The notes under the pieces: model-generated | What the model was told of the DNA's origin: nothing | Database searches by the model: none | What the model saw: only the letters and a program-made list of their open reading frames with translations | Made by a program: the position numbers and the translations under genes | Part shown: positions 2 to 62,757 of the stretch, one piece after another | Numbering within the stretch: position 1 is the first letter of the stretch | Layout of the letters: every line of letters starts with the position of its first letter | Source: Cepaea nemoralis | Lineage: Eukaryota; Mollusca; Gastropoda; Stylommatophora; Helicidae | Assembly: GCA_014155875.1 (NCBI GenBank) | Contig: JACEFZ010027761.1 | Location: forward strand, 50,001 to 114,000 | DNA: 64,000 bases | Reading direction: 5' to 3'

Positions 2-2812
2 CAGTGGCTAAATAAAAATGGTCTATATATAAGCCATCTCAACATCTTTCATCTGCTCAACAAATTACCTGAGCTCTCGGTAATACTGTCCAAACAGTTC
101 CATGTGTTTGGAATCACAGAAAGTCGTCTTAACGACAAAATAACCGACTCTGAAATCTCACTTAAGGGATTTAAAGTAATTCGGAAAGATGCAAATCAAA
201 AATTAGAGACAGGTATTGCTGTATACATTTCCAATTCTCTCAACTGGTCCCGTAGAAGTGATATCGAGACAGTAGAGATAGAATGTGTTTGGTTAGAGGT
301 GAAGCCAGCCAGCCAACAACCGTTTCTCATTGGATACCTATATAGGAATCCTTGTGCCGGGTACAGTTGGTATGACTGCTTCACTACAATGATGGATAGA
401 GTGTTTACAGCAGGTAGAGAAGTTATGATACTAGGTGACTTCAACATAGATATTAGTAAATCCAACCAGACATGGGACGATATCATTCTTTCTTACAATT
501 TCAAACAACTAATAAACCGTCCTACAAGGGTTACTGACACATCCTCAACTATAATTGATCATATATATGTTACTTGTCCAGATAATATTATTGAATGTTC
601 TGTTCCTGTTTGTACAGTTAGTGACCACTACCCGGTATGTTGTACATGGTCAAGAATTGGGTTCAAACCTCTTAAACATAAACATGTAAGTATCAAATTT
701 AGGAATTTTAAAGCATTCAACCAAGATTTATTTTTGCAAGACTTAAGAAAAGCAGCCCTTGATCACGTTTACCAACTTCCTGACCCGGACGATGCATTAG
801 CTTTCTGGACGAGGACAGGCTACAATGTGTTCGATAAACACGTGCCAATCAAAGAAGTTCGAGTCAAAAATCAACATAAATCCCCATGGGTCACTAGAGA
901 AGTGCTGGAAATCATGAGAGAGCGAGATACAGCACACAAAAATAAAGACTTCATCAATTACCGCAGACTAAGGAATAAAGTTAAATATGAAATTCGTGGG
1001 ATAAAAAAAGATCATTTTAAAAATTTGATTGTAGATAATTCAAACAGTACAAATATATGGAAGGCTATTAACTTGCTAACCAATAAGAAACGCCCTACAG
1101 AATCAGCAATACCAAATTCTATAACATGCGACGAATTCAGTTGGTTTTTTCAATCAGAAATAGAGAATCTAAAGTCTTCAATACCAGACTCATCGTGTAA
1201 TTTAAGTTCACTGGCATCATTCTGTGAGGAGAAGTGCACCAGAAATATTCCCCCTGAGATTCCTTTAATGTCTGTTGCAGACGTTTATAAATATCTCTTG
1301 AACCTCAAATCAACAAACTCACACGGCCTAGATGGTATCAGTAATAGAATTCTTCGTTGTGCTGCACCAGTCATTAGCGAGTCCTTAACGTTTATATATA
1401 ACCAGTGCCTGGCCAAAAACTACTTTCCATCTGCATTTAAAATTGCTAAAGTGTTTCCGCTAATTAAAAATGGCTCAATCGATAATAGCGTTTTGGGTAA
1501 TTATAGACTTATTTCCTTACTATCGTCGCTATCAAAACCACTAGAAAAACACATTCATAAAATAACGTTACACCATTTAATTAACAATGATCTAATAATT
1601 AACAGTCAATCTGGGTTTCGACCTAAATATTCTTGCCATAGTGCTCTAACAAAAATGACCGATAACTGGCACTTAAACATCAACAACGGTAGAATTTGTG
1701 GAGCGGTGTTTGTAGACTTTAAAAAAGCTTTTGATATGGTAGATCACGATATTTTAATTAGAAAACTAAAGCAAATGAAGACAAGCACCAACATGGTGAA
1801 CATAATTACGTCATTTCTATCCGACAGGCAACAAGTCATGTCATTCAACAACTGTCTATCAAGACCCACACAGCTTAATATTGGTGTGCCTCAGGGCTCA
1901 ATACTAGGTCCGCTGCTGTTTGCAGTTTATATTAATGATCTTCCTTTATATATCAATACAACTTGTGATCTATTTGCAGACGACTGTACTATATATACTA
2001 GTCAAGAAAACCGTAGTGAATTAGAGAATTCTTTACAAAAGGAACTTGATAATCTTACTAGATGGAGCAATGAAAACCGCATGCAAATTAACATCGACAA
2101 AACCAAATCCATGCTAATAACGACCAGACAAAACCTACAGACACTAGCCATAACTGGATCACCGCTCGAACTCTGCATGGGCATGTTACCTATAGTTAAT
2201 GTGACTGAACATAAAGCACTAGGGCTGTTAATAGACAGCCATTTGAACTGGAGCTCTCATGTTCACGCTCTTACCAAGAAAATAGCACAAAAAGTTTACC
2301 AACTTGCTAAAATTCAGCACTTCCTGGACGAAAGCACACGAAAAATATTCTACACATGCTATATCCAATCACATCTCGATTACTGTTCCACAGTTTGGGA
2401 TGGTTGCCCTAAATCTAATTTAAAACGACTATGTTCTCTACAAAACCGCGCTATTCGTCTGGTTTCTGGCATAAAGCACGTTGAAAGTAATAATTTGTAC
2501 AGTCATCTAAGACTTCTACCACTACAAAAGCGCTTCCTTTTCAACAAAGCCAAATTAGTGAATAAAACTATATCTCAAAATACCCCAGAGTATCTTCTGC
2601 CGCTGATTCAATCTAATGCAATGAACAGCAAGCGCCTAAATTTGTTACATGTCTCAAAGCCTAGATTGGACCTATACAAAACATGTTTCGCCTATTCTGG
2701 TGCTCACTTATGGAATTATCTGCCTCCAGATCTGAAAACTCCAATGAGTCCCTACACATTTAACCGAAAACTCTTTCAATACTTAATCCATACCGACTAT
2801 ATGCCACCATAA
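2..2812 (+). CDS. Non-LTR retrotransposon ORF2 (endonuclease + reverse transcriptase), 5' end beyond window
   Basis: The frame is open from base 2 to a TAA at 2810-2812, so the true start lies left of the window; a GTG at 104 and later ATGs are internal. The N-terminal third is an apurinic-type endonuclease domain: ITESRLN holds the catalytic Glu, GDFNID the Asp/Asn pair, and SDHYPVC the terminal Asp-His. The reverse transcriptase follows, with FVDFKKAFDMVDHD near 1711-1752, GVPQGSILGPLLF near 1884-1922 and the active-site FADD at 1973-1984. There is no RNase H domain. This arrangement and the PQGSILGPLLF signature fit the Jockey/CR1 superfamily; the exact clade is uncertain. No internal stop or frameshift is seen in 2.8 kb, unlike nearly every other element here, so this copy is young. 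The product would nick target DNA and copy its own RNA there. Confidence 0.9.
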   Translation, partial: QWLNKNGLYISHLNIFHLLNKLPELSVILSKQFHVFGITESRLNDKITDSEISLKGFKVIRKDANQKLETGIAVYISNSLNWSRRSDIETVEIECVWLEVKPASQQPFLIGYLYRNPCAGYSWYDCFTTMMDRVFTAGREVMILGDFNIDISKSNQTWDDIILSYNFKQLINRPTRVTDTSSTIIDHIYVTCPDNIIECSVPVCTVSDHYPVCCTWSRIGFKPLKHKHVSIKFRNFKAFNQDLFLQDLRKAALDHVYQLPDPDDALAFWTRTGYNVFDKHVPIKEVRVKNQHKSPWVTREVLEIMRERDTAHKNKDFINYRRLRNKVKYEIRGIKKDHFKNLIVDNSNSTNIWKAINLLTNKKRPTESAIPNSITCDEFSWFFQSEIENLKSSIPDSSCNLSSLASFCEEKCTRNIPPEIPLMSVADVYKYLLNLKSTNSHGLDGISNRILRCAAPVISESLTFIYNQCLAKNYFPSAFKIAKVFPLIKNGSIDNSVLGNYRLISLLSSLSKPLEKHIHKITLHHLINNDLIINSQSGFRPKYSCHSALTKMTDNWHLNINNGRICGAVFVDFKKAFDMVDHDILIRKLKQMKTSTNMVNIITSFLSDRQQVMSFNNCLSRPTQLNIGVPQGSILGPLLFAVYINDLPLYINTTCDLFADDCTIYTSQENRSELENSLQKELDNLTRWSNENRMQINIDKTKSMLITTRQNLQTLAITGSPLELCMGMLPIVNVTEHKALGLLIDSHLNWSSHVHALTKKIAQKVYQLAKIQHFLDESTRKIFYTCYIQSHLDYCSTVWDGCPKSNLKRLCSLQNRAIRLVSGIKHVESNNLYSHLRLLPLQKRFLFNKAKLVNKTISQNTPEYLLPLIQSNAMNSKRLNLLHVSKPRLDLYKTCFAYSGAHLWNYLPPDLKTPMSPYTFNRKLFQYLIHTDYMPP

Positions 2813-2824
2813 TTCATTTACTGG

Positions 2825-2877
2825 TATAATTGTTCAGTATAATTGTTCATTATAATTGTTTAGCTATAATTGTTCAC
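2825..2877 (+). repeat. 3' tandem tail of the LINE (about 13-bp unit x4)
   Basis: Four near-identical units of TATAATTGTTCA plus one or two variable bases start at 2825, 2838, 2851 and 2865. They begin 13 bases after the LINE stop codon. Short 3'-terminal tandem repeats instead of poly(A) are usual in several LINE clades, so this is probably the end of the element. Confidence 0.8.
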
Positions 2878-2899
2878 TATATATGTGTGTGCGTGTGGG

Positions 2900-2902
<3 letters not shown>

Positions 2903-2984
<82 letters not shown>
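2903..2984. repeat. (GA)n microsatellite
   Basis: About 41 uninterrupted GA dinucleotides directly downstream of the LINE tail. Open frames on either strand here are artefacts of the repeat. Confidence 0.98.
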
Positions 2985-2988
<4 letters not shown>

Positions 2989-3309
2989 AGTGGGTGTCAG
3001 AGAGAGGGAGAGAGTGTGTGCGCACGTGCATGCGTGTGTGTGGAGAGAGTGATTGAGCGAGAAATGGTGGGGGAATGTGTCAGTGCATGCATTCGTACGT
3101 GTATGTGTGAGAGTGAGTGAGGGAGTGTGTGCGTGCGTGCATGCGTTCATGTGCATGTGTATGTGTATGTGTGAGAGAGTGTGGTTGAGAGAGTGAGTGT
3201 GTGTGTGTGTGAAGGATTGTGTGTTAGAGAGTGAGACAGTGGGAGAGTTGATGTGTTAGTGTGTGTGTGTGTGAGCGCGCGCATGCGTGTGAGTGTGTGT
3301 ATATGAAAG

Positions 3310-3783: not shown

Positions 3784-3949
3784 ATCACTATTTTTACGTC
3801 ACATACATTTTATGTACACATTTTTCTCCATGTTTAACATTTTTATGAGACTGCTCATGACAAGTGTCAGTGTATGTGTGTGAGTAAAGTGTGGGAGTTT
3901 GTTCATACTAGTTTCAATACTAACGTGAGACATTTTGTATGTGTCTAGA

Positions 3950-5640
3950 TGTAAGGTAGTGTGAGTGTATGTGGAGGATATGTGTGAGTGTGGGGATATG
4001 TGTGGGTGGGGGGTGTGTGGGTGGGGGTATGCGTTTGGATGGGTTGGAGTGTGTGGGTTTGGTGGGTAGTGGTATTTGTGGGTGTTGGTGGGATGTGTGG
4101 ATGGATGTGTGGGGGTGAAAGTAGGGGTGTTGGAATGGGTGTGGGGGATGTGTGTATGGGTGGAGGATATGTGTATGGGACGGATGCGGGGGATGTGTGT
4201 TTATGTGAGTGGAGATGTGTGGATGGTTTGAGGAAGTATGTGTGGGAGGCGGGGTTGTGTGGGTAGGGGATTGTGTTGGGTGGATTGGGGATGCAAGGGC
4301 GGGTGGGGAGAAGTGTATGGTGTGTGAGTTTGAGATATGTGTGCGGTGTGTTGGTGGGGATTTGTGAATGATGTGTGGGTGGAGGGTATGTTTGTGGTGG
4401 TATGGGTGGAGGATAGTGTGTGGTGTGGGGGATGTGTGTGATGGGTGCGGGGAATGTGCGTATGGGTGGGGTATATGTGTGGGTGAGTAGGGGATTGTGG
4501 TGGTTGGGGGAAGTATGTGGGGTGTGTGGGTGGGAGATGTGTGTGTGTGGATGGGGAATGTGTGGGTGGGGGGTGTGTGAGTGGCTTAGGGATGTGTAGG
4601 TGGGTGAGGGAGTTGTATGTGTCGGGGTGGGATGTGTGAGTGGGTGGAGGATGTGTATGGGTTACTGGTATTGTGATCGAGAGATGTTTGGTTGGGGGTG
4701 TGTGGGTGCGTAGTGGAGGATGTATGCGTGAGTGAGTGTGTGTTGGTGGACGGGTAGGGAATGCGCGTGTGGGTGGGGAGAGGTGTGTGGTGTGTTGGTT
4801 GGGGATATTGTGTGGGTGAGGTATGTGTGGGTGGGGGATTTTTGTGGTGTGTGAGTGGGGGTATGTGGGGTGGATGGGTAAGGGTATCTGTATGGGTGTG
4901 GGTGGGACTATTGTGTGGTATATGGGTGGGGGACATGTGTGTAATGTGTAAGTGGGGATGTGTTGGTGAGGGATATGTGTGTGTGTGGTGCATGGGTTGG
5001 GAATAGTGCGTGGTAGGGGGTGTATGTGATGTGCGGGTGGGGGATTGTGTGGTGGGGGATTAGGTTATGGCGTGGGTGGGTGGAAGTTGTATGTGTGGGT
5101 GGTGGGGTGTGTGTGTGAGTGAATTAGGGATGTATGGGTGGTTAGGGAAATGTGTGTGTGTGGGGGGGGGGGGGGGGGTGGGGGGGCGTAGGGACATGTC
5201 AGTTGGTGGGGATGTGTGTGTATGGTTTGGGGATGTGTGAGTGGATGTGCGATGTGTGGGTTGGTGGGGGATTGTGTGCATGGGTGGGGAATATGTTGTC
5301 GATGGAGATGTGGCTGGGGGATGGGTGGTTTGAGGTGTGGGTGGGGAGAGGATGTGTGGGTTAGGATGTGTATGTGGATGGGCGTGGGATGTGTGGGTTG
5401 GTGGGGGAATGTTTGTGGGTGGCGAGTGTGTTTTGGTTGGGGGATCAGGTGAGGGCAGTGTGTGTGTGGGTGGGGGATGTGCGGGAGGGGGATGGGTCGG
5501 TTGGTGGGGTATGTATGTGTCCCTTGGTGTGCGTGTGTGTGGGTAGGTGGGGGTGTGTATGTGTCCCTTGGTGCGCGTGTGTGTGGGTAGGTGGGGGTGT
5601 TGTGTGGGTGGGGTGATGTATGGATAGGTGGGAGATGGGC
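3950..5640 (+). repeat. 1.7-kb C-poor GT-rich degenerate minisatellite
   Basis: The plus strand is built from imperfect copies of GTGTGGGTGGGGGATGTGTG-like units with very little C. Many closely spaced runs of three or more G (for example 5159-5178) could form G-quadruplexes on the plus strand. The open frames here (for example 3988-4266 and 5368-5616 plus, 4586-4993 minus) encode only biased Gly/Val/Trp or His/Thr/Pro strings and share no domain with any family, so I do not call them genes. Confidence 0.9.
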
Positions 5641-5836
5641 CTCATAACATGGTAATTACAATTAACCTTGTTTATGTTTACAACATTCATTTCACAATGG
5701 TTATTTTTCTTCCTATGTAAATGTATAATGCTCATGATGAACGAAAGACGAGTGATTGGAAGGGCCGAATGTAAGACGGGCCTGCGCGCCAAATTTGTGA
5801 CCCTAATAAAGTTGATTTGATTTGATTTGATTTTGA
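5641..5836 (+). mobile_element. 3' end of an unidentified retroelement with TTGAT tail
   Basis: Unique sequence leads to AATAAAGTTGATTTGATTT at about 5806, followed by several TTGAT units that run into the TCTA array. An A/T pentanucleotide tail after a short non-coding segment is typical of a heavily 5'-truncated LINE or SINE. No coding part or matching target duplication was found. Confidence 0.45.
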
Positions 5837-6718
<882 letters not shown>

Positions 6719-7040
6719 TTAACCAGTCCGCGCTATTCAATATTGATAAAAGTTACTGGAAAAAATGTGAGGACCATGTGTTGAAAGAGGAAGATGACTA
6801 TTGGAGATAGGATGGATTGAATTTTATGCAACCGAGAGCAATCATCAACCTACTGGAATCGTCCGACACAGATTAAGGCCTGAGATATTTTGCTCCAACT
6901 ATTCAGACGAATTGCAGGCCCTAAACATTACAGCATCAGCATAATGTCAATGGCAACAGTTTGTATTCCACAGTGATGAATTTTCAATTCCGCAAGCCCT
7001 CAGCGATGACAAACAACTGTATTGAAACACACACACACAC

Positions 7041-9460: not shown

Positions 9461-9656
9461 AACAGTGTCCCTCGCCATCAGGCGAACCCACTCCGACTTC
9501 AGAAGTTCTTGTAATTTACGTCCCCAAGTCAAGGACGATAGGTCAACATTTTAGTCCAGCTGTCCGGTGTAGGAGTTGAACCGCTTACCTCGGCATCAGC
9601 ACAAAGGGATGTTTAAGAACAGTCGTTCTTACCCATTCGGCCATGCGGAGCTGCAC
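9461..9656 (-). mobile_element. tRNA-derived SINE, family 2, copy a
   Basis: Read on the minus strand it starts with a tRNA-like head (CATGGCCGAATGGGTAAGA) and carries GGTTCAACTCCTACACCGG as B box, followed by a conserved body around CTTGACTTGGGG and CGCCTGATGGCGAGGGACA. The same order is seen at 29985-30275 and 38740-39060 on the plus strand. Confidence 0.85.
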
Positions 9657-12458: not shown

Positions 12459-13691
12459 TTACCGATCTTCATTTGTTTCTTGAAGGACTTGTTCATTGGT
12501 CTTTCTGGCTCTCCGTGGTATTCTTTGCATTTTCCTCAAAAACCACATTTCCACAGCCATCAGATGTTTTCCAGCTCGACTGCCCACTGTCCAAGCTTCA
12601 CATCCATATAAAAGTACAGGTCCCATGCAGCATCCGAACACTCTCCTTCCCGTCTCAATCGACATCTCTCCATTGGTCAGTATGTCTTCCATCCTGCCAA
12701 AGGCCACCTCTGCCATGGCGACTCCTGTTCCAATCTCTTCAAGGCATCTCCCATCAGATGCCACTACTGTTCCGAGATAATTGTACCTATTCACTCGCTG
12801 AAGAATATTCCCATCCACTTGTATATTACATTGTGGCATTTCGTTCCTCCTAGTGACGACCACAATCTGTGTCTTTTTACAATTTAATTCTAACCCTCGT
12901 TCACTGTGTGTAATAACCGCATCTACTAAATGTTGCAGATCCTGTTCATTGTCTGCAATCAAGACTGTATCATCTGCATATCTAATGTTATTGATGCATC
13001 GTCCCCCAAAGTTGATTCCTTCAATACCTTCAATATTTTTGAAAATACTTTCACTGTACAGGGAAAACAGATCTGGAGACGTTACACATCTCTGTCTCAC
13101 ACCTCTCTTAATAGGCTGATATTGGCCTACTTCATTATCAACTCTTATGGCAGCTTGTTGTTTCCAATATATGTTTTTTACAAGTCTAAGGTCTTTTCCT
13201 TCAATTTGTAGATCTTCAAGCATCCTTATCATGTCGACATGTCTCACTTTATCGAAAGCTTTTGTGTAGTCAATAAAGCAAAGGTGTAGATCTTTGTTTT
13301 CTTCTATAGATCGTTCGTTTACGGTTCTCGGTAAATACACTGCATTTACTGTACCCTTTCCTTCTACAAACCCACATTGTTCTTCTCCTATTTCAGGTTG
13401 TATTTTCCTCCTAATTCTTTGCATGATAATTCTTAGCAAAATCTTCGTGATGTGACTCATTATACTAATTGTTCGATGTTGATCACATTCCAAAGCTCCT
13501 GATTTCTTTGGGATTGCAATAAATACAGAGTTACATAATTCATGAGGTATATTTCCATTATTAAGCAGACTGGTAACTTTATCTATTCCATATTCTTCTA
13601 AAGCATTAATCATTTCTGTTGTGACGCTGTCTGAAACGAGGGTCTTGCCAGATTTCATATGGTAAAGAGCATTCTGAACCTCCATCTTCAA
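12459..13691 (-). CDS. RTE-like reverse transcriptase segment (410 codons open)
   Basis: This open segment covers the reverse transcriptase of the inserted LINE: HLCFIDYTKAFDKVRH, GVRQRCVTSPDLFS and NIRYADDTVLIAD, followed by the thumb and LLYGCEAWT. CFIDYTKAFD is characteristic of RTE-like elements. The usual Gln-Gly of the RQG motif is Gln-Arg here, while the copy at 61.8 kb keeps Gln-Gly, so even this open segment may be inactive. Upstream parts (14314-14105, 14001-13747) are in other frames, and downstream the C terminus continues in another frame (12398-12183, RGRPRSKYLDGLASW). The LINE as a whole is a pseudogene. Confidence 0.85.
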   Translation of the reverse strand: MKMEVQNALYHMKSGKTLVSDSVTTEMINALEEYGIDKVTSLLNNGNIPHELCNSVFIAIPKKSGALECDQHRTISIMSHITKILLRIIMQRIRRKIQPEIGEEQCGFVEGKGTVNAVYLPRTVNERSIEENKDLHLCFIDYTKAFDKVRHVDMIRMLEDLQIEGKDLRLVKNIYWKQQAAIRVDNEVGQYQPIKRGVRQRCVTSPDLFSLYSESIFKNIEGIEGINFGGRCINNIRYADDTVLIADNEQDLQHLVDAVITHSERGLELNCKKTQIVVVTRRNEMPQCNIQVDGNILQRVNRYNYLGTVVASDGRCLEEIGTGVAMAEVAFGRMEDILTNGEMSIETGRRVFGCCMGPVLLYGCEAWTVGSRAGKHLMAVEMWFLRKMQRIPRRARKTNEQVLQETNEDR

Positions 13692-14518
13692 AATTGCTGG
13701 TCCTTCATTATTATTTTGAACATCCTAGTGTTCGTCTCTGTTGTCGTCATAAAGGTTTTTCACGTAATCTGACCATACATGTAAGATCTGATCTTTTTCT
13801 ATTATGACTCTTCCATCTTTTGTCTTTAGGTAGCCTGCTGATGTTACGTGTTCTTTGATTAGTAAGCTCCTGGATTCTTTTGTGCATTAGTTTCGCATTT
13901 TTACTGTTGTGTTGTTTTTCAATTTCCTCCGCAATTTTTCTCAAGCCATGTTTCTTTTGCCTCCCTACATAAGGTTCTGACTTTTCTGTGAATTTCTTCA
14001 TATTTGGCAGGATAATTTTTGTTCTGTCTTCTTGTTTCCATTAGTTGTAAAATTTCTTCAGTCATCCATGTCTTACGGCCCACTTTCTTTAATTTTGGAA
14101 TAGTTTATTCTGCTGCATAACTGATTGAATTCTTCAGCATTTCCCATTGATCATCTACATCTTGAAATAGGATCTCTAGATCAGACAATATATCAAATTT
14201 GTTCTTTACTTCTATGTTAAAACTATCTTGTATTTCTTTGTCAGTTTTCAATTTGCACAAGTCATATTTAGGGTTTCCTGCTATATACTTGACTATCTTT
14301 AACTTTACCCTCAATGTGCCTGTAATTAATCTGTGATCACTGTAACAGTCTGCATTTGGAACTGTTTTTACGACTGTTAACTCATTTCGAAACCTTCCAT
14401 AATCAGGATGTAATCTATATGGTTTTTAATCCTGCTGTCTGGACTCCTCCATGCCCATAATCTTCTAGGATGCTGTTTAAACCATGTGTTTCCTACAACA
14501 ATTTCTTGTTCTTTTACT

Positions 14519-41487: not shown

Positions 41488-42868
41488 TATAATTTTATCA
41501 ATATCACTAAAATATAAATATTTTAAAGTAAATTAATTAGGATAAGGCATAAATATTAAAGGAGAAAAACAGCGGCAGGCTTCCACTTAAAAAAGTTAGT
41601 ATTACTATACTATAGTATACTAGTAGTTTACTACTACAATAAATTAATAACTACGGCATACACACGTTTTTCTATCTGTCTGAAAAATATATATTTTAAT
41701 TTTTTAATTTAATTTTTTAATTAAAAAGATAGAAATAGAAAAATAAATAACGGTTGTGTAATTTTTCGAACCAACGAGTCACTGTTGAGACTGCCACACG
41801 CAGATCCCCCCAATAATTGATGCGGTTACTGACATTCGCCAGCAATTCGCAATATAAAATAATAAATATATGTCATGAAATGACAGTCGTGCATTGGCGA
41901 CAAAACTTCCTGATAAAAGTTAAGAAGAAGTGTTGCAACGAATATTGTTGACCGCCGGTTACATCTTACATTTGTATATGAATCCATTAATTGTGCCTTG
42001 CAGCATTTGCCATCCGCATCGTATGCAGGTTGGTATGTTCAATACTCCATTAGCCAGTAAAAAAGTTACAATCCACTCAAACTTGTTACAATGAAATAAA
42101 AAAGTTGTAACTTCCATGGACAATATTTTAAAAAAATTTAATATTTTGTATGACAAGTTTTCTTTTTTAGACGGTTCTTTTTAGTGTACATAATCATTTT
42201 TTAATTACATTTTAATTCTACGGTAAACAACGCAATTTAACCTAAATAACTATATTTATTAAATTATGAATAAATCATAAATGTTTGGATTATAATTATT
42301 TATACAGATTTTATATATTTATATTATATCTTTTTGTTTAGTTGTATATTTTTAAGTCCCTAATTTATTATAGATTTATTATTTTAGAATATTCCTATCA
42401 TGCCACATGGAGTGCACAAATCAAAGAGGCCTAGTGGATGCGAGCAGCGAAAAGCAAAGAAAAAAAGATGTGAATCACTAAAGTCACTACCTGGATTCAT
42501 GCTTCAATATGTCAAGAGACCAAGTGATGGACAAGGTTCATCAAAAGACGTTCTTCCTCAATCTACAATTGATAAGGATTCCTCCCATGCTGACAGCATG
42601 CATTCTTCAAAAGAGCAACTAGAGCCAGAAATGGAAGAGAATCACGAGATTGATGCAGAAATACATAATGAAATAGCAGTGGATGAATTTGAAACAGAAA
42701 TGCATGCTGAAAATGATTCACGTCATGATACTGTAAATGTGATGAGTCAAGTGGATGAGAAAAATTGGAATATTTTATCTGATGCTTCTTTCTGGAATGC
42801 ACCTGTTCCAGATCATTTTCGAGTTGAAATTATCAAAAGAGGAAGTTGTTCTTTTCAGAACAAGGATG

Positions 42869-43379
42869 GTATGATTTTCGCTTGGGGTGCGAGAGGTCCC
42901 GGGTTCAAATCCCGGACGAGCCCCCACGTCCACACATGTCAGGATCTTCTATTAGGCTCGTTGGCTAACACATGTGAGACAGTACAAGTACAACGTAATT
43001 CGACGTAAGACATAGCAACACAAGTTCAATGGATTTATTACCACATTAAATACATAACAATAGTTACAGCAATGTACAACATATAACTCACAACCACAAT
43101 ACAGCTCATAGGTCTGACGCTCACGATATCAGTCGGTCAGCTCACAACCACGGAGATTCACACAAACGCCTTGCTCTCGACACACACGTCCGTTCAGATG
43201 TCCAGTCCCAGCTTGGTCTGAGATTAACACACACACTCTCCACTGCCTCTCGTGGGGTCACGTGGCTTTGCGTGCGTCTGTCGTCAGCGCTGGTCGCGTG
43301 TCAGGTAAGAATCTCGCCAGCCGACAACTCTTGTCCGCCGGGTGCCGTAACGATGTTGCTGCACACTTAGGCTCTGACA
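42869..43379 (-). mobile_element. Single LTR plus tRNA-Pro primer site and tRNA read-through, inserted with GATG duplication
   Basis: GATG occurs at 42865-42868 and 43380-43383. On the minus strand the insert begins TGTCAGAGCC and its LTR ends CCTGACA (43379 down to 42937; 443 bp; terminal inverted repeat TGTCAG/CTGACA). An AATAAA lies in the LTR at about 43038. Then come ten spacer bases, the 18-base primer site TGGGGGCTCGTCCGGGAT (42926-42909) and 40 more bases complementary to the body of tRNA-Pro through the anticodon arm into the D loop (42908-42869). There is no internal retroelement gene. The LTR owner could be a Ty3-like or retrovirus-like element; the family cannot be told from the LTR. 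Confidence 0.9.
42909..42926 (-). promoter_or_regulatory. tRNA-Pro primer binding site
   Basis: Eighteen bases complementary to the 3' end of tRNA-Pro including the non-encoded CCA. The site follows the LTR end by 10 bases, as expected for an LTR retroelement. Confidence 0.92.
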
Positions 43380-45831
43380 GATGGGCCTTTCAGTACTGTG
43401 ACAAGGCAAGGTGCAAAGACTAAAGGAGATGTGCGCCAGCTGTCAAAAGAATGGTTCTACAAGACGATGCCAAATGGTGAGAAAATACTGCGGTCATGGA
43501 TGGTTTACTCGCTCGTCAGTGAGAAATTATACTGCTTTTGCTGCAGACTCTTTGCTGTTAATGTAACAGAACAAACATCAAAATTTGTCACTGGGTTTCA
43601 GCAGTGGTGGAAGCTGAGCCCAAAATTACATAATCATGAGATATCGGATGGCCATCTAGGTTGCCTTGAAAAATGGAAAACATTGGCAGCAGGCCTTAAG
43701 CTGCACAAAACAATTGATGCCGACAGTGTTGCTTTAATGGATAGGGATAAAAAAAAAATGGAGGGATATCTTGCACAGGTTGCTTGATATCACATTGTTT
43801 CTTGCTAAGCAAAATCTGGCATTTCGTGGCCATAAGGAAGATGCATCTTCGTTGAATAAAGGAAACTTTCTTGAGATGGTTGAGATGCTTTCTAAATATG
43901 ACCCTGTGTTGAAAGAGCACCTAATGAGATTAAAGCGAACTACATCTGTAACAGTAAAAGCATCCGTATCTTATCTTTCACCAGAAACTCAGAATGAATT
44001 TAGAACTGTTCTGGCAAATCATGTGAAGGAAATTCTTGTAAATGATATAAAGGCTGCAAGGTATTTTGGAATTATGTTCGACAGCACACCTGACATATCA
44101 CACACTGACCAGATGTCTGAGGTGATCAGATATGTGAAAATCCACAATGGGGAAGTTGAAGTGAGAGAAGTGTTTCTAGGATTTTTCCCTTTAAAGGGGA
44201 AAAAAGCTGATGACCTCAGTTCAGACATTTAAAAAAATCTAGAAAGTGATGGACTTGACATAATGATGTGCAGAGCTCAAGGTTATGATAATGCTGCCAC
44301 AATGTCTGGAATTCATGGAGGTGTTCAAGCCATTCTGAAAAGAAAGAATAAGAAAGCTATTTTTAACGGATGCGTGGACCATTCGCTTAAATTATGTGGT
44401 CAACCCTCTTTTGCTGAAAATGCTTTATGTGTAACATTTTTTGGAACTCTTGAGAGAATGTATTCCTTCTTTGCTGCTTCCACCCATCGATGGGATGTTT
44501 TAATTGAACACACTGCAATGTCGATTAAAAGGCTATCAACAACACGCTGAAGTGCACATCATGCTGCTGTTAAACAGGTGAAAGATAAGTTTGATGAATG
44601 TGTGGCGGCGATTGAAGCTTTATGTGATCCTCGTGAAAATGTGGAAACAAGAGGTGCAGCACAAGGTCTTTTACCTGCTGTCTGTGATTTCACGTTTCTG
44701 TGCTATCTTTACTTTTGGGCTCCTGTACTTGAGGAAGTTAATTTGACACAGCAGTATCTGCAGACTAAAGGCTTAACTCTTGACAAAGTAGTAACCAAGT
44801 TAGAAGCATTAAGACTTTTTCTGCAGGAGAAGCGCAGTCACTTAGTGGAGCATGCAATTGAACAGGCACTTTTAAAAGCAGACCAATTCGGAATAACAGT
44901 AGAGAGAAGATTAAGGTTCAAGAAGAGAATGGCAGGGGAACAACTCAGAGATGCTTCAGATGCTGGACTCACTATGCAAGAAGAAAACAATAGGGCGATG
45001 CTGGAGTATATTGATCGTTTTCATTCTGAACTCCAGACCAGATCAACAGCGATCAAGGAAGTAGCAAATATGTTTGAGGCTGTTCAAGCCAAGAGTCTTC
45101 TATCAGCAACTGAAGAAGAGTTGCTGGTGTCAGTTCCAAAATTGACCACTTTCTATGATGAGCTATCCGAAGTAGAGCTTTTAAAAGAAATACTAAGGCT
45201 GAGAAGACACCTGAAGGCAGCAGATATTGATATCCACAAAGCCAAAGACTGGTCAATATTTGATATTTTAAAATTCATAGTTGACTGGGATTTCCTTGAA
45301 TCTCTCCCAATACTCTCATTAAGACTACAACTATATCTTACGATCTGTGTGTCTGTGGCTTCATGTGAGAGGAGCTTTTCAAAACTGAAACTTATAAAGA
45401 ACTATTTGCGATCAACCATGGGACAGTCAAGACTTTCTGATCTGGCTATATTATCAATTGAAAGTGATATGGTGAAAGATATTGATTTTGATGATGTGAT
45501 TGACAGGTTTGCAGCTTTGAAGACCAGGATGGGAAACTTTTAATTTTAAATAACAGAAATTTTAATGTTAAATAACAAAAATTTAACTTTGTCCGAGTTT
45601 GTCGAAGTTCTTTATTTATGTTTTACCTGAAGTATTGAAGTTATATTGTTCAATTTGTTTTCTTTCTTATGTCCTTATTAACTTTTTGACTTATTTTACA
45701 AACATTACTATATGCGATTATATATGGTACAGGAACACTCGGAAGAAGACCATGGTGAAAGTCTAGAGGGGTGACACCAAGAGTTTACCGCACTGGGTGA
45801 CACCAACCCCAGTGACACCACTGGTCCGACG

Positions 45832-59340: not shown

Positions 59341-60091
59341 CCAACTTCACAGCAACGGGTCGTCCCCATTATGCTCTGTTCCTGTGCCAGTGAATATCAC
59401 ACAGAACGCTCCACACTGCCCAATGTGAAAAGTGGAAAAGACAGGAATCTCGACAAACAACAGCCCGCACAGATACACTGTGCGTAATGCCGCCACCAGA
59501 ATGTCAACACAATATTCCCCCACAAAACACCCAGTAGACGGTACTACCTGCTTTCTGTTAGCGCTGAATGTTGGGCGGCGATTGCCAAACCCGATACCCC
59601 ACATTGTGCCAACGGCTTCGGGCAGAGGAGTGCAATTGGGAGGGTACAAGCCTTACCCTAGTGTGAGGAAATGCAACCTAAGGACTAAATCTCATGTCAG
59701 GGCAGACCAGGCCCTAAGCCTTGGTTGGCAGCTGGTCTAGGATCGAAGCTCTGACAGGCGGACAGTTAGAACATTGTTTTGCTGATCTGGCAGCTTCAGC
59801 AGCTTGTCTTGTTCCAGACATATTGATGTTACCTTTCCTCTGGAGTAAACTAGACACCCTTGGGCAAGGTGGAGTACCCGTTTAGCCCCCCGATCAGGGT
59901 TACGTGAAGCCATGGGTGCAGGTGGTGGATGAAGATGGGGAGCAGCCGACAGATAGTTATAGGTTATGGTATCCACCTTCACGACGATAGGCAGAGGATC
60001 TCTTTTTTTTAGAAGACAATGGCTACGGTCACTGACCAGTATGGTCACTGCTAGGAAGGAAAGCAATGGCAAACTACCTTCTTTACATATG
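59341..60091. other. Possible 5' region of the RTE-like LINE
   Basis: The part 59985-60090 (GCAGAGGATCTCTTTTTTTT to AAGCAATGGCAAACTACC) resembles the leader region I associate with RTE-like elements, and GCAGAGGATC with CTACGGTCAC recurs at 56957-56990. Open frames exist on both strands (59432-59740 plus, 60072-59737 minus) without a recognised domain. Confidence 0.4.
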
Positions 60092-62757
60092 CCAAGAAAA
60101 TCATGTTGTGTGGAACCATTATATTAGATAAGCAAACATCAAATTCTGTCAAAGGATATCGGGCTGTGTCAGACAGAGTTCTATTAGTAAAATTAAATGG
60201 AAGACCTTTTAAAATAAATGTCATTCAAGTATATGCCCCAACAAGTGAATGCAGTGAAGAAAGTATAGAGGAATTTTATAATGACATGGAGTCTGCTTTG
60301 AAGAACTGTAAAAAATCAGGAATAAATATCATAATGGGTGATTTCAATGCAAAAATAGGAAAGCAAAGCGATGGATGCAGTGTAGGCAACCATGGTTTGG
60401 GAGAGAGAAATGAAAGAGGATACAGACTTGTAGAATGGGCAAAAGAACAAGAAATGGTTGTAGGAGACACCTGGTTTAAACAGCATCTTAGAAGATTATG
60501 GACATGGAGGAGTCCAGACAGCAGGATTGAAAACCAGATAGATTACATCCTGATTAGCAGAAGGTTTCGAAATGCGTTAACAGTCGTAAAAACAGTTCCA
60601 AATGCAGATTGTTACAGTGATCACAGATTAATTACTGGAACATTGAGGGTAAAGTTAAAGAAAGTTAAATATACAGCAGGAAACCCTAAATATGACTTGT
60701 GCAAATTGAAAACTGACAAAGAAATACAAGATAATTTTAACATAGAAGTAAAGAACAAATTTGATTTATTGTCTGATCCTATTTCAAAATATAGATGATC
60801 AATGGGAAATGCTGAAGAATTCAATCAGTTGTGCAGCAGAAAAAACTATTCCAAAAGTAAAGAAAGTGGGCCGTAAGACATGGATGACTGAAGAAATTTT
60901 ACAACTAATGGAAACAAGAAGACAGAACAAAAATAATCCTGCCAAATATGAAGAAATTCACAGAAAAGTCAGAACCTTATGTAAGGAGGCAAAAGAAACA
61001 TGGCTTGAGAAAAATTGCAGAGAAATTGAAAAACAACACAACAGTAAAAATGCGAAACTAATGCGCAAAAGAATTCAGGGGCTTACTAATCAAAGAACAC
61101 GTACATCAGCAGGCTGCCTAAAGACAAAAGATGGAAGAGTCATAATAGAAAAAGATAAGATCTTACATGTATGGTCAGATTACGTGAAAAACCTTTATGA
61201 CGATAACAGAGACAAACAGTATGATGTTCAAAATAATAATGAAGGACCAGCAATTTTGAAGATGGAGGTTCAGAATGCTCTTAACCATATGAAATCTGGC
61301 AAGACCCCCGGTTCAGACAGCGTCACAACAGAAATGATTAATGCTTTAGAAGAATATGGAATAGATAAAGTTACCAGTCTGCTTAATACAATATATGATA
61401 CAGGACATATACTTCAGGAGTTATGCAATTCTGTATTTATTGCAATCCTAAAGGAATCAGGAGCCTTGGAATGTGATCAACATCGAACAATTAGTATAAT
61501 GAGTCACATCATGAAGATTTTGCTAAGAATTATCATGCAAAGAGTTAGGAGGAAAATACAACCTGAAATAGGAGAAGAACAATGTGGGTTTGTAGAAGGC
61601 AAGGGTACAGTAAATGCTGTGTATATACTGAGAACCGTAATCGAATATTCTTTAGAAGTAAACAAAGATCTACACCTTTGCTTTATTGACTACACAAAGG
61701 CTTTCGATAAAGTGAGACATGTCAACATGATAAGGATGCTTGAGGATCTACAGATTGATGGAAAAGACCTTAGACTTGTAAAAACATATATTGGAAACAA
61801 CAAGCTGCCAGAAGAGTTGATAATGAAGTAAGCCAATATCAGCCTATTAAGAGAGGTGTGAGACAGGGATGTGTAATGTCTCCAGATCTGTTTTCCCTGT
61901 ACAGTGAAAGTATTTTCAGAAATATTGAAGACATGGAAGGAATCAACATTGGGGGATGATGCATCAATAACATTAGATATGCAGATGATACAGTCTTGAT
62001 TGCAGACAATGAAAAGGACCTGTAAAATTTAGTAGATGCGGTTGTTACACACAGTGAACAACTAGGGTTAGAATAAAATTGTAAAAAGACACAGATTATA
62101 GTCGTCACTAGGAAGAACGAAATACCACAATGTAATATACAAGTAAATGGGAATATTCTTCAACAAGTGAATAGGTACAATTATCTCGGAACAGTAATAA
62201 CATCTGATGGGAGATGCCTTGAAGAGATTAGAACAAGAATCGCCATGGCAAAAGTAGCCTTTAGCAAGATGAAAAACATACTGACCACTAAAAAGATGTC
62301 AATTGAACGAGAAAAAGAGTGTTGAGATGCTACATAGAACTTGTACTTTTATATGGATGTGAAGATTGGACAATGAGCAGTCAGGCTGAAAAACATCTGA
62401 TGGCTGTAGAAATGTGGGTTCTGAGGAAAATGCAAAGAATACCATGGACAGCCAGAAAGACCAATGAACAAGTTCTTCAAGAAACAAATGAAGATCGTAA
62501 ACTGATTAGAGACATTAGACGTAGACAGTCACAATTTTTTGGGCATGTTATTAGAAGAAATGAATTGGAGAACTTGGTGACAACTGGTAAGATCGAGGGG
62601 AACAGACCAAGGGGAAGACCTAGAAACAAGTATCTGGATGGCTTGGCCTTGTGGCATGGTCGAGACAGAAATATAGTGCTGATCCACGATTCTGGTGATC
62701 AAGTGAGATGGCAGAACATGACCGCCCACGCTTACCGGCATGGCAGATGATGGATGG
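60092..62757 (+). pseudogene. RTE-like LINE, endonuclease to C terminus, decayed
   Basis: The endonuclease part (to 60798) has INVIQVYAPTSE, IIMGDFNAKIG, IENQIDYILIS and YSDHRLITG but lacks the N-terminal catalytic Asn/Glu region. After a frame change near 60775 the next part (to 61831) covers the linker and RT with SGKTPGSDSVTTEMINALEE and HLCFIDYTKAFDKVRH. A one-base change near 61805 is followed by GVRQGCVMSPDLFSLYSES, NIRYADDTVLIAD and at least three stops (about 61957, 62023, 62075). The C terminus (62319-62750) has LLYGCEDWTMSSQ and GHVIRRNELENLVTTG. It is colinear with the minus-strand copy at 12198-14986 and uninterrupted by the GAA element. Confidence 0.88.

Follow-up and report, generated by a model that had tools for sequence, protein, structure and literature searches.

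Copies of one LTR retrotransposon family in this genome carry, after the LTR and a short spacer, a long complement of tRNA-Pro that extends past position A58. Among the 40 best-scoring places in the genome, such extended copies stand at 10, which represent eight distinct junctions when duplicates are counted once, and the read-through is therefore recurrent. We put the probability of the following explanation as a whole at roughly 80%: reverse transcriptase repeatedly read through into its primer, mature tRNA-Pro molecules served as templates, and the products were rescued by a misplaced strand transfer or by one-LTR insertion. The copying is read directly from the sequence, and the mechanism is what we infer from it.

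One of the eight junctions lies in a 511-bp insert in a hAT transposase within the window, i.e., the whole analysed stretch of 64,000 nucleotides. On the minus strand, all bases of the insert were accounted for: an LTR of 443 bp (43379 to 42937, TGTCAG...CTGACA) with an AATAAA polyadenylation signal (43034..43039, minus strand), a 10-base spacer, TGTGTGGACG, between the LTR and the primer site (42927..42936, minus strand), 18 bases complementary to the 3' end of tRNA-Pro including CCA (42926 to 42909, minus strand), and 40 further tRNA bases (42869..42908, minus strand) that run from A58 (42908) to G19 (42869), the plus strand being tRNA sense. Beyond this 40-base complement stands host DNA. 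The base-by-base check confirmed the composition given in the preliminary description. The tRNA copy was identical in 56 of 58 columns, counted by eye, to the human tRNA-Pro(AGG) sequence used for comparison, with C27 replaced by T (42877) and A34 by G (42884) as the two mismatches. The U5 region also contains CCAACGAGCC (42955..42964, minus strand), which is identical to the complement of the 5' end of tRNA-Pro in that human gene, and it is here, or right beside it, that two of the sister copies pass into U5.

No second copy of the insert was found within the window, and 145 kb sampled from the genome contained no further copy of the LTR. ARAGORN called no tRNA gene in the window and Rfam gave three weak matches at the locus, all below the gathering score, presumably because the tRNA copy lacks its 5' part; its folding was not better than that of shuffles (z of -1.08 and -0.44). 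The antisense ORF of the LTR, used as a protein query, found no relative. The primer-site 30-mer and 18-mer and the LTR-end 17-mer had no match in viral_contigs, and the insert had none among plasmids. Two matches of the primer-site 18-mer in genome_contigs, from Rhodobacteraceae MAGs and without further tRNA sequence, were taken as chance. Elsewhere in the window, two copies of one LINE-like reverse transcriptase frame share near-identical protein stretches (12459-13724, minus strand, and 60055-61831, plus strand), and long low-complexity tandem arrays with overlapping open frames in several frames occupy 3920-6810.

The insert interrupts a ZMYM1-like hAT transposase, the 5' part of which (42388..42864, plus strand) is followed after the insert by the remaining, frameshifted part with DUF4371 and Dimer_Tnp_hAT domains (43384..45543, plus strand). 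As had been claimed, the frame reopened once the insert and one GATG were left out. With the joined frame as query (one further frameshift skipped), 349 hAT relatives were found, the best 120 of the 349 were listed, and 11 were picked for alignment by score and coverage. All 11 were gap-free across the joint, in the motif QNx(D/N)GPF, and carried neither the insert nor any tRNA sequence; the tRNA part was therefore absent from the hAT before the insertion. A short exact target duplication, GATG (42865..42868 on the left and 43380..43383 on the right), brackets the insert, as expected of an insertion made by an integrase. Its length can be read as 3, 4, or 5 bases (ATC, CATC, or CCATC), a fifth base, G, being common to both sides, because the end of the tRNA copy and the target have letters in common. 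The only other site that gives a duplication, that of sister copy L019, has ACCA on both sides of the insert, within a host repeat and with an additional A; this favours the four bases originally reported, within the range of three to five that the alignment allows.

These data also bear on whether the tRNA part might have an origin apart from the LTR, as an ancient tRNA-Pro pseudogene or as a SINE derived from a tRNA. Such SINEs are common here: the B box was matched 10 times in the window, counting the one in the insert, against 0.59 expected, and three SINE copies were noted in 145 kb; however, the two best SINE matches reached 79-81% over 47 bases and had other flanks. The LTR-spacer-tRNA joint, moreover, was found at 10 places and 11/11 aligned hAT relatives were without tRNA, which refutes such an origin and leaves it almost no chance of being correct. 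The sampled SINE (GGTCTCGAGGTATGGTGTCCGCCTCGAGTGCTGGAGGTCCCGGGTTCAAGCCCCGG...) was located at L014:1486-1570, L007:5026-5090, and L006:324-390 (minus strand), and the B box of the L014 copy is duplicated internally. In the window, tRNA-like sequences with B boxes were seen at 9572 (minus), 30056 (plus), 54028 (minus), 56602 (minus), and 57181 (plus), representing at least two SINE-like types by eye.

A search of the genome (3.47 Gb, 26,579 contigs) with the insert gave 2,810 candidates, and the best 40 were scored, all of which matched over the LTR. Among these best 40 of 2,810, 10 carried the LTR and the extended tRNA part (1-511, in one case 1-509) at 96-100% identity, and 30 matched over 1-465 alone, i.e., the LTR, the spacer, and 12 bases of the primer site; a query that includes the tRNA part puts extended copies first, so that 10/40 does not represent the ratio in the genome and more copies of either kind are possible. 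Sequences were fetched for all nine other extended places and for 5 of the 30 short places. The spacer was present in all 15 copies read (the window copy and L018-L031), and the nine other extended places kept both the spacer and the 18-base start. In four of the five short copies, 12 bases complementary to tRNA-Pro stand 10 bases past the LTR (TGGGGGCTCGTC), and the fifth has the imperfect form TGGGTTGCTCGTC. Identity to the tRNA ended at base 12 in these copies (at base 13 in the variant of L029), where all five run on into a leader unrelated to the tRNA (TTTATTTAAGAACC...); the tRNA stretch is therefore no part of the normal element. None of the five had the 18 tRNA-derived bases, and identity past A58 was confined to the aberrant copies with their long tRNA-derived sequence (the 10 extended places, compared with the 5/30 short ones read).

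The preliminary description had assumed a classical 18-base primer site. From these comparisons, the normal element seems instead to have a short, at times imperfect, tRNA-Pro site, and bases 13-18 of the window's site, or at least the last six, are to be read as tRNA copy. Of the listed short places, 23/30 span 466 rather than 465 bases, as does the copy with TT, and judged by this span alone the TT form of the primer site may be the commoner one in the family. The genome search had been proposed with the expectation that tRNA similarity in the relatives would stop after 18 bases; it did recover other copies with tRNA extensions, and it placed that stop after 12 bases. The central claim, that reverse transcriptase passed A58 and copied the primer tRNA to the D arm, was upheld by the sequence and by the short copies. 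The two observations named in advance as speaking against it were not made, as the 58-base complement was absent from 5/5 non-extended copies and tRNA sequence from 11/11 aligned hAT relatives.

The family shows TG...CA ends, a poly(A) signal, repetition in the genome, and a tRNA primer site by the 5' LTR. A young multi-copy LTR retrotransposon primed by tRNA-Pro is the best explanation, with the class assigned from the LTR and the primer site. The first 3.8 kb of one copy comprise a 638-aa open frame and the beginning of another; neither had a Pfam match, and the name "gag" is therefore not claimed. At LTR positions 142 and 244, the window copy was unlike all eight extended copies compared (L024 was left out owing to an indel), and the window LTR may be a member of its own lineage.

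The eight junctions differ in where copying ended and in what follows. L025 and L026 have identical flanks and represent one site on two contigs, and L018 and L020 have the same continuation from the tRNA into the open frame but differ in their 5' flanks and by a one-base insertion. The last tRNA base copied was gene index 10 in L018/L020, L021, and L022, with endpoints at 9 in L023, at 13 in L019 and L024, at 14 in L025/L026, and at 17-19, in the D loop, in the window, where the computed value is 17 and the range reflects letters common with the flank; the endpoints thus fall at 9-10 in four junctions, at 13-14 in three, and at 17-19 in the window copy. With the 3.8-kb 5' part of one copy as a ruler, the strand was found to continue into the element's U5 or first long frame in six of the seven non-window junctions, with 1-5 bases shared. 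The continuations lie in U5 at 418 (L019) and 424 (L024) and in the open frame at 1847 (L023), 2000 (L018/L020), 2188 (L025), and 2519 (L021), all four internal ones falling within the 638-aa frame (1284-3197). By eye, the overlaps at the joints were five bases in L023 (AGACC), four in L021 (AGAC) and L024 (CCTA), two in L025, and one each in L018/L020 and L019. The preliminary description had seen a single dead-end fossil in the window; given the 10 extended places, the eight junctions, and the onward continuation in 6/7 of the others, read-through DNA is therefore not simply a dead end.

The L019 insert has a single LTR, a tRNA copy followed by a normal U5 end (CTGACA), and a likely 4-bp ACCA duplication. 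A second reading of its sequence is that five bases may have been skipped near A13 and the tRNA end copied, with passage to U5 over the shared AACGAGCC, because the complement of the tRNA 5' end (CCAACGAGCC) also stands in U5. L024 runs through U5, the LTR end, the spacer, the TGGGTTGCTCGTC site, and the leader; at L024:631-674 (LTR orientation), two primer-site regions stand in tandem, the tRNA-derived one and the element's own TGGGTTGCTCGTC form. In L022, the tRNA copy gives way to a 16-base piece of the LTR in inverse orientation (positions 421 to 406 of the LTR), beyond which the sequence could not be placed. The window copy showed no continuation and no match to the 3.8-kb ruler, and it is the only one of the eight junctions in which the tRNA copy was seen to meet host DNA.

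An established non-autonomous LTR-tRNA element, with all copies derived from one event, would agree with the 96-100% identity of the 10 places and with the one junction that L018 and L020 have in common despite different 5' flanks. The copies differ, however, at tRNA positions 27, 34, and 58, in their tRNA endpoints, and in six continuation places; a founder would have handed down the same state in each, and a single founder is therefore disfavoured and, in our estimate, improbable. For L018/L020, the aberrant form itself may have been copied on, or the same joint may have been made twice, and given their common junction some of the read-through events may not be independent.

In the mechanism that we propose for recurrent read-through, reverse transcriptase repeatedly misses the stop in the primer during the plus-strand step; the sequences show that it went beyond A58, traversed the variable arm and the anticodon, and entered the D arm. 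Extension past A58 was obtained in a cell experiment upon mutation of the m1A58 methyltransferase (PMC13191261). The resulting strand would be an LTR-spacer-tRNA copy with a 3' end unmatched to the element's own primer site. Being extended into the tRNA, it would pair poorly with the minus-strand primer site and so be extended from some other minus-strand site, which appears to be the simplest common mechanism. The observed junctions suggest that rescue came from a second strand transfer that landed in the wrong place, either in U5 or in the first long frame, the products of which would be 5'-deleted or rearranged copies. In the window, a one-LTR product would have been inserted as it was, with a 4-bp duplication, by an integrase acting on the proper U3 end at one side and on the tRNA end at the other.

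Solo LTRs usually originate by LTR-LTR recombination, and the window insert could be a remnant of this process in a two-LTR provirus whose right end carried copied, unremoved tRNA. Recombination also yields one LTR, a tRNA tail, and an exact duplication, and in HIV-1 the junctions of 2-LTR circles are known to show U5 left unprocessed and then primer-site sequence (PMC5618025). However, the tRNA copy was seen to meet host DNA in 0/7 other junctions, and in the six that were resolved it stands ahead of internal sequence or a U5 end; we judge such an origin unlikely, though a serious contender. Within the read-through explanation, direct one-LTR integration is the likeliest origin of the window copy, which we favour somewhat, as a judgement rather than a computation. 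L019 indicates that one-LTR inserts with a tRNA copy do occur, and it could have been reduced to one LTR later; no second example of an integrase using a tRNA end was seen among the copies read.

The junctions further record which tRNAs were copied. The usual animal tRNA-Pro isoacceptors are AGG, TGG, and CGG, of which AGG is the usual eukaryotic one, and A58 is near-universal in tRNAs. Over the eight junctions, A was never seen at position 34, which was G in four (the window, L018/L020, L024, and L025/L026), T in three (L021, L022, and L023), and C in the remaining one (L019). Five junctions have A58; the other three (L019, L021, and L022) have G58, in each case together with T34 or C34; T34 occurs together with A58 in L023. 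Position 27, which is T in the window, L019, and L025/L026, varies among the junctions, and this looks like the use of different tRNA genes. The pattern at position 34 fits tRNA-Pro(IGG), (UGG), and (CGG), with inosine read as G (PMC4446420; PMC11417395). G34 is best read as edited tRNA-Pro(IGG), encoded G34 being also possible, and the templates would then be mature tRNA-Pro molecules representing each of the three usual isoacceptors. For a mature, edited tRNA, the base at position 34 appears to be better evidence than the CCA cited in the preliminary description, an argument of little weight since the CCA complement belongs to every primer site of this kind. G58 is possibly a misreading of m1A58; G58 genes would explain the G too, and the confinement of G58 to copies with T34 or C34 could reflect distinct tRNA genes.

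The variants at positions 34 and 58 might also be genomic, derived from host tRNA-Pro(GGG) genes and G58 isodecoders, and carry no modification signal. Eukaryotes mostly spare G34 in such boxes, a pattern from which some large animal sets of tRNA genes depart (PMC5372738). The occurrence of T34 or C34 in all three G58 junctions points the same way. Against a genomic origin, A34 was found in 0/8 junctions though AGG is usual, L023 combines T34 with A58, and A58 is near-universal; we regard a genomic origin as possible but rather doubtful. In zebrafish tRNAs, misincorporation and some reverse transcriptase stops occur at positions 20-20b, and many tRNA clusters have m1G9 and nearly all m1A58, with high reverse transcriptase error rates (PMC11417395). 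Four of our eight endpoints lie at positions 9-10, the comparison with m1G9 being drawn from zebrafish. With the chances evenly balanced in our view, the genome may be an archive of primer tRNAs read by a native reverse transcriptase, in which I34 would appear as G, m1A58 as A where it was bypassed or as G where it was misread, and the endpoints would cluster beside positions 9-10, where m1G9 would block, with all tRNA-Pro isoacceptors used and ectopic second strand transfer giving rise to new 5'-rearranged copies.

The second strand transfer is taught to depend, as a rule, on the stop at m1A58. In the present family, this rule appears to have been repeatedly broken in an animal, and the genome preserves the extent of reverse transcription, the isoacceptors used, and the aftermath. 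Should the base changes prove to be imprints of modification, a genome sequence would by itself record tRNA modification in the cells in which the element moved. The junctions point to a source of one-LTR and 5'-deleted elements other than LTR-LTR recombination and, if our explanation is true, to a route by which LTR elements would gain new primer sites, tRNA sequence, and deletions. We found no report of an LTR element with inherited copies in which tRNA read-through recurs in a literature search outside which most subscription journals lay, which is weak evidence of absence.

Several known systems share features with these copies. Helenus TRIMs (PMC10886601) are likewise LTR elements with tRNA sequence and include animal families with 4-bp duplications; in contrast to their tRNA-like part, which is located within the LTR and lacks complementarity to the primer site, ours is an antisense primer copy past the LTR. 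Membership in that group was rejected, the tRNA part being antisense and placed after the LTR and spacer instead of forming an LTR-internal promoter. Reverse-transcribed tRNA-Gly beside an HIV provirus (PMC12220202) is also mature-tRNA cDNA adjoining an LTR, but its authors propose self-primed reverse transcription, whereas here the element's own primer tRNA was copied, in primer orientation. The junctions of HIV-1 2-LTR circles (PMC5618025) show the same order of U5, extra bases, primer site, and tRNA sequence at the end; those are circles from cell culture, whereas ours are genomic copies with up to 67 tRNA bases. Closest in the step concerned is HIV-1 plus-strand strong-stop synthesis on a tRNA lacking m1A58 (PMC13191261), in which reverse transcriptase also passes A58 without a block and the long products are likewise unfit for normal strand transfer; here, however, copies are fixed in an animal genome assembly at eight junctions, their products having continued into the element and been inserted.
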